DNA of 64,000 bases from an uncultured Lachnospiraceae bacterium. Lineage in GTDB: Bacteria; Bacillota; Clostridia; Lachnospirales; Lachnospiraceae. This document shows positions 1 through 44,542 of the stretch, piece by piece. The stretch spans positions 1-64,000 of the forward strand of contig CANRDO010000009.1 in the NCBI GenBank assembly GCA_947629385.1, in the 5' to 3' direction. Positions within the stretch are counted from its first letter, which is position 1. Every line of letters begins with the position of its first letter. Position numbers and translations under genes: made by a program. The notes under the pieces were generated by a model that made no database searches, was not told where the DNA came from, and was given only the letters and a program-made list of their open reading frames with translations.

Positions 1-107
1 TTCGCGAGCATAGCGACAGCTGTCGGAGCATGTCTGAGCGAAGCGAGTTTGCGGAGACAGCTGTCCATAGGCGGCGCAGCGAATCAAGGAGAACAACGTG
101 TTTGCGG
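1..107. repeat. Dispersed 107-bp repeat unit, copy 1
   Basis: These bases recur in inverted orientation at 44108-44214 with a single mismatch (position 54). The unit contains two perfect 10-bp palindromes GACAGCTGTC at 15-24 and 56-65. It lies just downstream of the spoIIR stop codon. The unit may begin before the window, so its left end is not defined. No protein of recognisable family is encoded. The following bases to about 150 share a CCCGGGTTTTGT-type end with the element near 44.5 kb. Confidence 0.85.
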
Positions 108-6961: not shown

Positions 6962-6997
6962 TTTCTTCTCCGTTTGCTCAATTCACGTATTGGCTAA

Positions 6998-7155
6998 CCG
7001 GACGCCCTGCAAGGGCTTGCAATGTCAGGGCAGACCCGCTCGCGCTTAATCGGGCACGCAGCGGTGCATAAGTTCGCTTGCGCTCACCAAGCACCGGCGG
7101 CCCTCAATGATCTGCCCTGACACAGCAAGTCCTTGCCGGGCTGTGCACTATGCAC
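6998..7155. mobile_element. MITE-like repeat element, short copy (A)
   Basis: The element is bounded by imperfect inverted repeats of about 30 bp: one end reads GCCCTGCAAGGGCTTGCAAT and continues into GTCAGGGCAGA, and the other carries TCTGCCCTGACACAGCAAG. The interior holds GGTGC...GCACC pairing around TAAGTTCGCTTGCGCTCACC. The same element, inverted and enlarged by roughly 80 bp in the middle, is at 44292-44536. No transposase is encoded. It overlaps the 3' end of the moxR-like gene and fills the gap to the VWA gene. Confidence 0.8.
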
Positions 7156-8078
7156 GATGCCCCGAAAATTTCCGCCGACGTCCAGCTCTCCGGGATGCGC
7201 GTCATCACGATGTCCTCCACGATCTCGCGCTCGAACAGGTCGAAGCTCTTGTTGACGATCCCCATGCGGATTGCAAGCCGGGGGCTGAGCCCCGCGCGCA
7301 CGGTCTTGAGCGCGCCGATCAGTCCACGCAGATCGAGCGGCTTCGTAGAGATCTCGTTGTTGTTTGCCTTCGTCTGCAGGTCGAGGAACAGCCCGCAGAT
7401 CTGCTCCAGCCCTTCCTTCCGGAAATCCGGGAAGACTCGTTCCAAAATATAGTGCAGCGTATCCTCCGTCGCCATCGGCATCTCAATCACCAGAAAACGC
7501 GACACCAGCGCCTCGTTGAGCTCGCGCGTGCCCGCGTATCCATAGTTCATCGTGCCGATGAAGCGGGCCGCATCGTGCAGGCTCACCTTCTCATAACCAG
7601 GAATATCAAGGATCCGGCGATAATCGAGCGTCGCGTGGAGCACGGAGACCGCGTCGTTCTTCGCCATGTTCACCTCGTCGAAGATGCCGAAGCCCCCGCC
7701 GACCGCGCAGTCGTAGACCGGGCCGGTGCGCAGCTGCACCTCGCCCGCGCGGAACGTGTCCGTGCCGATCAGCGCGCTGCTGTCCATATTGACATGAAAT
7801 GAGATGTTCCACGACGGCCTTCCAAACACGTAGGCAAGGTTCTCCGCAAGAATGTTTTTCCCGGTCGCCTTCGTGCCGGTCAGGAGGATATTCTCCCCCT
7901 GCAGAAGCGCAGCCGCCGCCATCTCGAACGTCTCCCGTCCGTAGTACGGCAGCATCGGCCGGATGATCCTCGGTTTCAGCTTCTCCTCCACCGGATATCT
8001 CTCCCGAAACTCCGCGATCGCGCGCAGAAGCTCCCTGCTCACCTGCTGCTCTTCCAGTGACTGAATGATATAATCCAT
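7104..8078 (-). CDS. MoxR-family AAA+ ATPase
   Basis: MoxR-type AAA+ ATPases act as chaperones together with VWA proteins. The 324-residue product carries Walker B as GIFDEVNMA, sensor-1 region IGTMNYGYAGT and an arginine-finger-like NEALVSRF block. Its Walker A is unusual, GTKATGKN (residues 68-75), with Asn where Thr or Ser is normal. ATG at 8078 is the likely start; the reading frame is open further upstream, but the extra sequence is Arg/Ser-rich and unlike the family. The last 17 or so codons (from about 7155) come from a dispersed repeat, so the natural C terminus may have been replaced. The VWA gene follows downstream. Confidence 0.85.
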   Translation of the reverse strand: MDYIIQSLEEQQVSRELLRAIAEFRERYPVEEKLKPRIIRPMLPYYGRETFEMAAAALLQGENILLTGTKATGKNILAENLAYVFGRPSWNISFHVNMDSSALIGTDTFRAGEVQLRTGPVYDCAVGGGFGIFDEVNMAKNDAVSVLHATLDYRRILDIPGYEKVSLHDAARFIGTMNYGYAGTRELNEALVSRFLVIEMPMATEDTLHYILERVFPDFRKEGLEQICGLFLDLQTKANNNEISTKPLDLRGLIGALKTVRAGLSPRLAIRMGIVNKSFDLFEREIVEDIVMTRIPESWTSAEIFGASCIVHSPARTCCVRADH

Positions 8079-36566: not shown

Positions 36567-38378
36567 ATGAAAAGATTGTTTTTTCCTTGTTTTCTGGCTA
36601 TAGGTCTGGCGCTTGCTTCTCCCGCGGCCACATTCGTTCCCGGATCGGAGGGTGCTTCTGTCCTGGCGGCTGAGCCGGAGACTCCTGCCACAGAAGCTCC
36701 GGCTCCGGCGGTTACCGGATGGCAGCAGGATGCGAGCGGCTGGTATTACTTACAGAATGGCGTGAAGCTTACGGGCTGGCAGGATCTGGGCGGGAACCGA
36801 TACTATTTCAACGCATCCGGCTATCGCGTTTCCGGAAACTACAAGATAGGTGAAAACTATTACCTGTTCCGTCCTGCGACTGAGGCCGAGAACCCGGGTG
36901 CCCTGTGCCGCGATGCGGCTGGATTAGTCAGCTTCCGGAGCAATCCGAATGTCTACTACTACCTGACTTCTGGGAAGCAGGGTATTCTTACCGTCAACAA
37001 ATGGGTGAAGAGCAATGGCGGATACTACTATGCCAACTCCAAGGGCTTGATCAAGCTTGGCACGATCACCGTGAAGAAAAAGCGCTATCATATCACCAAG
37101 GATGGACGCATGACCTTCTACGGAAAGTCTTCCTATGATAATGGATACTATTATGCCAAGTCAAACGGAGTCCTGAAGACCGGCTTTCAGACGATTGGTG
37201 GGAAGAAATACTACTTTGACAAAAAGACAGGCAAGCGCGCATCTGGTGCTACCGTGGTCGGCAAATACACGTATTATTTCCGCAATAACGGCACTATCAG
37301 GACCGGCTGGGTAAAGAAGTCTGGTAAGACCAAGGTGTATTATTACGACAGCAATGGCCGTCGTGTCTCAGGCTGGTATACGATCAAAGGGAAGAAATAC
37401 TATTTTGACCCGAAGAAGGACGATACCCGCGTACAGAATTGCTGGAAGAAAATCAATAAGAAGTACTACTACTTCAACGCGTCCGGCGTGATGCAGACCG
37501 GTTTTTTTACAGTCAATGGCAAACGCTATTATACCAATTCGAATGGCGTGCGCAAAAAGGGCTGGCAGACCGTCAGTGGTCGAAAATATTATATCGACCC
37601 GAAAACTCACGTTGTCACGACCGGCTGGCTCACATATAATAAGAAAAAATACTATCTGAACCCGAACACATCCGCCAGTGCATATGGCGCAGCAGTGACG
37701 GGCTGGGTAAATATTCCTACCAGCAACGGCAAAAAGAAATACTGGTATTATTTCAACGATGATGGAAGCATGTATACCGGGTGGCTCACGCAGAATGGCA
37801 AGCGCTACTATTTCAAACCGTCCAACGGCCGGATGTTCACCGGGAAGCATACCATTTCCGGAAAGGAATACAACTTTGACAAGAACGGTGTGCTCTTAGC
37901 GGCTACGCCTACAGGAGCATGGCGCATCGAGGTCAACCGCAGGAGCTGTTTTGTGGTCGTATACCGTGGCGATACACCGGTGCGAGCGTTTGTGTGTTCT
38001 ACCGCTGCAGACGGAGTCAGCACGCCGACCGGCACCTTCTCTCTGAAAGATAAGCTCCGCTGGCACGAATTGAAAGGACCTACCTGGGGTCAGTACTGCT
38101 CCCATATTACACCGGATATCCTGTTCCATTCCGTGCCGAATTATCAGCGCGACAACCACACGCTTGAATCAGACCAGTACAACAAGCTCGGAACGCCGGC
38201 TTCGGCAGGCTGCATTCGGCTCACGGTTGAGCATGCAAAATATCTGTACGATAACTGCCCGATCGGCACCAAGGTCATTGTCAGCGATTCCGTTGCACGG
38301 CCGAGCGGCGTCGTCATCGAGACAGCGCCGAAGATTCCTTTGTCGCAGAACTACGATCCTACCGATCCTAACGCCTGA
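36567..38378 (+). CDS. Secreted L,D-transpeptidase with cell-wall-binding repeats
   Basis: The 603-residue protein has a signal peptide (about residues 1-32), a Pro/Ala/Glu linker, and about 18 aromatic wall-binding repeats of the form GWxxxxGxxYYF (about 50-450). The C-terminal YkuD domain (about 455-570) carries the active-site signature PASAGCIRL, with Cys 549 as nucleophile and an upstream His in HSVPNYQ. Such enzymes form 3-3 cross-links in peptidoglycan or attach proteins to it. A strong GGAGGGGG site precedes the ATG. It stands alone on the plus strand, with its own promoter and terminator. Confidence 0.95.
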   Translation: MKRLFFPCFLAIGLALASPAATFVPGSEGASVLAAEPETPATEAPAPAVTGWQQDASGWYYLQNGVKLTGWQDLGGNRYYFNASGYRVSGNYKIGENYYLFRPATEAENPGALCRDAAGLVSFRSNPNVYYYLTSGKQGILTVNKWVKSNGGYYYANSKGLIKLGTITVKKKRYHITKDGRMTFYGKSSYDNGYYYAKSNGVLKTGFQTIGGKKYYFDKKTGKRASGATVVGKYTYYFRNNGTIRTGWVKKSGKTKVYYYDSNGRRVSGWYTIKGKKYYFDPKKDDTRVQNCWKKINKKYYYFNASGVMQTGFFTVNGKRYYTNSNGVRKKGWQTVSGRKYYIDPKTHVVTTGWLTYNKKKYYLNPNTSASAYGAAVTGWVNIPTSNGKKKYWYYFNDDGSMYTGWLTQNGKRYYFKPSNGRMFTGKHTISGKEYNFDKNGVLLAATPTGAWRIEVNRRSCFVVVYRGDTPVRAFVCSTAADGVSTPTGTFSLKDKLRWHELKGPTWGQYCSHITPDILFHSVPNYQRDNHTLESDQYNKLGTPASAGCIRLTVEHAKYLYDNCPIGTKVIVSDSVARPSGVVIETAPKIPLSQNYDPTDPNA

Positions 38379-44018: not shown

Positions 44019-44107
44019 GCTCCTCCAAGTAAAATGATGGTGGTCTGACTTCGTGTATAGTTCACTTAAATGTAATCCGAACGCGTGCTCTGTCTGCGGA
44101 TGTTCCG

Positions 44108-44214
44108 CCGCAAACACGTTGTTCTCCTTGATTCGCTGCGCCGCCTATGGACAGCTGTCTACGCAAACTCGCTTCGCTCAGACATGCTCCGACAGCTGTC
44201 GCTATGCTCGCGAA
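44108..44214. repeat. Dispersed 107-bp repeat unit, copy 2 (inverted)
   Basis: The reverse complement matches 1-107 at 106 of 107 positions, including both GACAGCTGTC palindromes. It lies upstream of recD2 in the 524-bp gap between recD2 and mreB, next to the MITE-like element. The bases between the two (44215-44291) contain further short inverted repeats and no gene. Confidence 0.9.
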
Positions 44215-44291
44215 TCCTGCGTCGAACTGCCTATCGTTTGCGCACGGAACACCGACAGCTCAGCGCACGCTGTTTCGTTTCGTATTCCAAC

Positions 44292-44536
44292 GCATAGCCC
44301 AGCAAAAGGGACTTGCTGTGTCAGGGCAGACACCCCGGGCCGCCGGTGCTTAGTGAGCGCAAGCGAGCTTATGCACCGCTGCATGCCCGATTAAGCGCGA
44401 GCGGGAGTCGGAAAGCAACGCGAAGCGTTCTCAAATGCTTTCCGACGATATGCCGCTGAACGAATGTGAGGGGGCGCTTCCGCACGGCCCTGACATTGCA
44501 AGCCCTTGCAGGGCGTCCGGGTTTTGTAAACTATAG
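44292..44536. mobile_element. MITE-like repeat element, long copy (B)
   Basis: The left end (GGGACTTGCTGTGTCAGGGC at 44308) and the right end (GGCCCTGACATTGCAAGCCC at 44486) form imperfect inverted repeats. Relative to the 6998-7155 copy it is inverted and has an additional central block of about 80 bp (44406-44485). That block holds a perfect 11-bp hairpin, GTCGGAAAGCA / TGCTTTCCGAC. It ends 6 bp from the mreB stop codon and has no coding capacity. Confidence 0.8.
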
Positions 44537-44542
44537 GCGAAT

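Follow-up and report, generated by a model that had tools for sequence, protein, structure and literature searches.

A family of intergenic hairpin elements with a conserved core in genomes of Lachnospiraceae

Bacterial MITEs, including the ERIC-type and Bcr1-type intergenic repeats, are short, non-coding, dispersed intergenic sequences that have inverted-repeat ends, form hairpins and carry no internal transposase gene. REP/BIME sequences are extragenic hairpins of 20 to 40 nt that lie near gene 3' ends and have a linked RAYT (Y1-type) transposase. Integron attC sites are folded imperfect hairpins that come with a cassette array and an integron integrase. The family described here comes from a 64,000-nucleotide stretch of DNA of an uncultured Lachnospiraceae bacterium (the window) and is best read as new and undescribed, although hairpin-forming interspersed repeats as a general kind are already known; a literature search found no paper on this repeat. 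Like MITEs, the element is short, non-coding, dispersed and intergenic, with inverted-repeat ends, a hairpin and no transposase inside. Unlike them, it lacks a target-site duplication as a general feature and a known parent transposase, its unpaired core motifs are conserved across a whole bacterial family, and its cores are shared between loci whereas the arms are locus specific. As with REP/BIME, it is an extragenic hairpin near gene 3' ends, found singly or as inverted pairs (in G236 and G167), but the hairpin is much longer, about 150 to more than 300 bp (over 130 nt, against 20 to 40), and no RAYT-like neighbor recurs. An integron attC site was considered and rejected: there are no cassette arrays, and a tyrosine recombinase is found near one copy pair only (G151, L232). 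A core conserved family-wide and apparently exchanged among fixed sites is unusual for repeats of this kind.

The initial annotation described a non-coding unit of 107 bp at the start of the window, repeated some 44 kb away. Direct comparison confirms the near-identical pair: positions 1 to 107 and the reverse complement of 44108 to 44214 differ solely at position 54 (G versus T), and a repeat finder reports a slightly longer match (111 nt, 98%). The two copies lie, as reported, in gaps adjoining spoIIR (TIGR02837, 147.6 bits, slightly below the cut-off of 151.9) and recD2 (TIGR01448). The length of the unit was misjudged. Position 1 of the window is the first base of its contig (C9), one of 104 in a 3.24-Mb genome, and the repeat breaks assemblies, with more than 10 contig ends of this genome falling inside the element; position 1 is therefore no biological boundary and the true unit is much longer. 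The 107 bp are the center of a longer, DNA-encoded hairpin element of 191 to 578 bp, and their limits are a contig-end artifact. The same genome contains 18 matches to the repeat, several of them cut by contig ends. These are intergenic and bounded by terminal inverted repeats (TIRs), so that the assignment to an extragenic repeat family was right, and the many copies with sharp ends look both structured and mobile. The near-identity of the window pair is real, too, but it is common to the whole family in this genome and thus gives these two sites no special status.

Complete elements in the window's genome are intergenic, measure 191 to 578 bp and end in 16-bp TIRs, TTCGTGTWTARTTCAC. A search with the 16-bp end pattern yields 42 hits in this genome and none with the reversed pattern as control, and in the alignment of complete copies the similarity spans TTCGTGTTTAATTCAC to GTGAATTAAACACGAA. 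The window's genus has 46 distinct TIR-bounded sites of 26 to 578 bp, all with the inverted-repeat ends typical of MITEs; their lengths include 26 (both ends fused), 57, 191, 203, 422, 459, 492 and 578 bp. The long form combines two hairpin domains, of which one is the core that holds the 107 bp and the other lies close to the left end. Three further parts are optional: an 83-nt GA-cis module (RF02987), a hairpin of 25 nt and an alternative arm about 50 nt in length. The window contains three elements, one truncated (1 to 160), one complete (44050 to 44541) and one short (6976 to 7158), with the following features; model positions refer to a covariance model built from 11 cores.

1 to 160, + strand: copy 1, the 3' part of a complete-type element with tail subtype 'GTGGACAGGCACATCGG', cut by the contig start; right TIR at 145 to 160
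1 to 83: copy 1 match to the covariance model (model positions 36 to 119)
15 to 24, + strand: 5' arm of the apical stem, first 'GACAGCTGTC'; covarying stem
56 to 65, + strand: 3' arm of the apical stem, second 'GACAGCTGTC'; covarying stem
145 to 160, - strand: right TIR of copy 1, TTCGTGTTTAGTGCAC, about 10 bp past the spoIIR end
6976 to 7158, + strand: short derivative (191-bp type) without the core, left TIR eroded
44050 to 44541, - strand: copy 2, a complete element of 492 bp that separates recD2 from mreB and starts 1 nt after the mreB stop codon
44050 to 44065, + strand: TIR of copy 2, TTCGTGTATAGTTCAC
44526 to 44541, - strand: opposite TIR of copy 2, TTCGCCTATAGTTTAC, a variant that G039 retains at the orthologous site as TTCGTCTATAGTTTAC
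44103 to 44249, - strand: conserved hairpin core of copy 2 (model R1/R2 positions 1 to 147/148)
44403 to 44485, + strand: GA-cis (RF02987) module in the second hairpin domain of copy 2 (60.4 bits, E value 2.1e-10)

The GA-cis insert splits a domain that is contiguous at 6998 to 7103 (repeats I2/I3). Next to the latter, at 7104 to 7158, the upstream AAA-type protein apparently takes its final residues and stop codon from the short element.

Without mismatches, GACAGCTGTC is found in the window only at 15 to 24, 56 to 65, 44150 to 44159 and 44191 to 44200; with one mismatch allowed, there are 9 hits against 2.0 expected, a count reached in none of 100 shuffles. The initial annotation listed two palindromes in each copy. 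Both sequences are present, but they are not independent, as they form the two arms of one stem in an element that folds into a single long interrupted hairpin. In relatives, the arms of this stem change together, to GACAACTGTC/GACAGTTGTC, GACAGATGCTC/GAGCATCTGTC and TTCGCTGCT/AGCAGCGAA. Among 74 copies aligned to the covariance model, 94.3% of the cells are paired, with double changes in 46 of the 46 pairs, 942 double-changed cells versus 229 ± 14 in shuffles, and 30 to 46% of cells paired in slid-structure controls; because the alignment was fitted to the model, the absolute figures tend to be too high, but both controls differ from them by a wide margin. The core alignment thus shows the conserved secondary structure and compensatory changes by which structured non-coding RNAs are recognized. 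Columns that are at least 90% conserved make up 35% of the unpaired and 10% of the paired ones, and the conserved unpaired motifs are AACnATAGG, AGcATAGC, TGTcTGAGC...GCGAGTTT and ATangcGGCGCAG.

The covariance model detects the family in 42 of 299 Lachnospiraceae genomes, sampled almost entirely one per genus from this dominant gut bacterial family, usually in several copies each. The number of core copies ranges from 1 (a single recognized core in G007, G044 and G334) to at least 33 (G327), with 17 and 13 in two other genomes. A gapped pattern of the apical motif, run over 84,980 species, returns 73 stretches, whose titles name Lachnospiraceae, Blautia, Lachnoclostridium, Eubacterium or unclassified Clostridia-type organisms as well as the isolate Frisingicoccus caecimuris, which has one copy; the same pattern has zero hits in viral contigs. 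A phage or plasmid origin was rejected, there being no match in IMG/VR or in phage and plasmid collections. With a second model, three further families of the order also give matches, which are weaker and in some cases multi-copy.

Cores and arms differ in how far they are shared between copies. In G327, a complete genome from another genus, the cores are 78 to 98% identical, and each sits within its own unrelated inverted-repeat arms; 98% of the core is common to the copies at 594849 and 493256, whose arms share nothing. For the 27 copies examined there, the complementarity score of a copy's own arms averages 32 (minimum, 19), versus 14.2 between copies and 12.8 after shuffling. Over all genera, the arms of 95% of the copies score above the highest swapped control. 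At orthologous sites of the sister species G039, the flanks and the site-specific TIR variant are kept, and the interior is of a different subtype or inverted (44050 to 44541 of the window versus L109; L002 versus L102; L006 versus L107). This pattern is best read as an exchange of cores among fixed sites. It is established that the arms of inverted repeats can be homogenized, and their spacers inverted, by template switching from one arm to the other (PMC8604942, PMC8794818), and from the sequence comparisons we infer that gene conversion and template switching both act at these elements.

The reading that we favor, with a probability of roughly 0.6, is a non-coding interspersed hairpin element of the MITE/BIME-like kind that spreads in trans and whose cores are copied among fixed sites. 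Whole elements would be spread in trans by a putative transposase recognizing the TIR, the hairpin or both. Once in place, the hairpin may frequently trigger template switching during replication as well as break repair; these processes would keep the arms complementary, invert the spacer and copy the central core between dispersed copies, probably by gene conversion between ectopic copies after hairpin cleavage. Insertions would survive mainly right after stop codons, where they are least harmful. The conservation of the unpaired motifs hints at a specific partner, protein or RNA, that is probably part of the mobilizing machinery. More tentatively, these might be selfish or structural DNA elements of a new class, whose core moves or is converted between fixed sites independently of the arms. 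The arms would then be made or maintained at each site by template switching, and the unpaired bases would serve as the recognition code of a putative structure-specific recombinase; we put this stronger version at well below even odds.

Comparisons of orthologous sites show where the element can be lacking. The site of the short element at 6976 to 7158 is empty in G033, G040 and G041, which have 2 to 5 bp instead. At a ppk-like locus (L108), the element is absent in G000, G038 and G044; in G039, a second copy of the upstream gene's final 27 bp follows it. Because G033, G041 and G036 have other sequence at this site, the difference may equally reflect loss in G000 and G038 or gain elsewhere. 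The relatives of G327 share only about 70 to 75% of its flanking DNA and are too distant for intergenic gaps to be read. There is no general target-site duplication: direct repeats of 2 to 9 bp are no commoner than in mismatched flanks, and those of 10 to 27 bp flank three copies only (L108, L207 and L210). G287 contains four near-identical whole units (L207 to L210) with a different terminal repeat, GACAAACGCATGAAT, two of which are bracketed by direct repeats of 10 to 11 bp. In seven genomes (G000 and six relatives), no TIR pair encloses a gene and no autonomous partner was found, which is weak evidence, as MAG contigs break at the repeat. No neighbor gene, RAYT-like or other, recurs beside the core copies. 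In G151 (contig C114), two inverted core copies with about 2.5 kb between them flank the gene for a tyrosine recombinase (L232); it was rejected as the mobilizer, as none of the other core copies has a homologue of it nearby.

Strong covariation would ordinarily count as proof of a functional RNA, and the family could primarily be a structured non-coding RNA, either a 3' untranslated region element or a small RNA, kept by selection on RNA folding, with mobility secondary. Besides the very strong covariation, this interpretation draws on the conserved unpaired motifs, on the position after stop codons, where read-through transcription occurs, and on the three genomes with a single recognized core. 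A single folding strand should tolerate G-U but not A-C pairs. In the core, the G-U to A-C ratio is 127:45, and it becomes 75:41 once the two pair columns with the most G-U are set aside; the excess leans towards one folded strand such as RNA, but it is weak evidence because model fitting favors G-U. The locus-specific outer arms, aligned favoring neither pair, have no such excess (87:89 in a lax count, 4:7 with strict flanks). The copies, which lie in intergenic DNA near gene ends, are also neutral in orientation to the transcribed gene: 22 lie between co-directional genes in one direction and 20 in the other, with 18 between convergent genes and 1 between divergent ones. The patchy distribution (42 of 299 genomes), the spread in copy number from 1 to 33 and the empty orthologous sites in sister species likewise speak against selection on RNA folding as the main force, which we regard as rather unlikely. 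From the pair ratios and the neutral orientation, we read selection or mutation as probably acting at least partly on DNA, and an RNA role is possible. The combination of covariation with strand-neutral arms and orientation makes the family a natural test of whether long hairpins can stay paired through template switching instead of RNA selection.

Near-identical cores within unrelated self-complementary arms could also mean that the core inserts specifically into the loops of hairpins that were already there, bidirectional terminators for example, the arms being the old target. Many arms indeed have runs of A on the left side and of T on the right, and GA-cis and the 25-nt hairpin are themselves nested inside the element. 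The arms are often 40 to 100 bp long, well above the length of terminator stems; within the window's genus they end in the shared TIR and clearly belong to the element, and in G287 they travel with the core, all of which makes this an improbable account of the family. An origin of the window pair by recent local duplication or by faulty assembly, as the start of copy 1 at a contig end might suggest, is refuted by the 18 matches in the genome, by G039 orthologues with the same flanks, and by the presence of the element in independent MAGs and in the isolate F. caecimuris.

An Rfam scan of 13 loci, at the gathering threshold and at a permissive E value, gave no match to the core family, and the element matches GA-cis only through its insert. 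GA-cis (which reportedly goes back to Weinberg in 2017) was therefore rejected as the identity of the element, as only the nested 83-nt insert at 44403 to 44485 matches, and the core does not; generic plant miRNA-precursor hits, below the gathering score, are due to the long hairpin. GA-cis itself reaches about 60 copies in genomes of the genus. All five copies in the window's genome accompany TIR elements. Four copies examined in other genomes of the genus (L360, L361, L362 and L364) lie inside long open frames, and three of these give a shared peptide like RPAAEQSEGAIP. In this they are similar to the Rickettsia palindromic elements, from which the core element differs by avoiding coding sequence. 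Nested here and in frame in genes elsewhere, GA-cis looks like a mobile palindromic module rather than a cis-regulatory RNA. G327 has a second repeat, 165 bp long with 99% identity (L201:2520-2684 and C1:589483-589647), that shows weak, sub-threshold similarity to Rfam Clostridiales-1. Elsewhere in the window, positions 37182 to 37887 contain four spaced 46-nt direct repeats with 61 to 74% identity, which read like an in-gene cell-wall-binding repeat domain.
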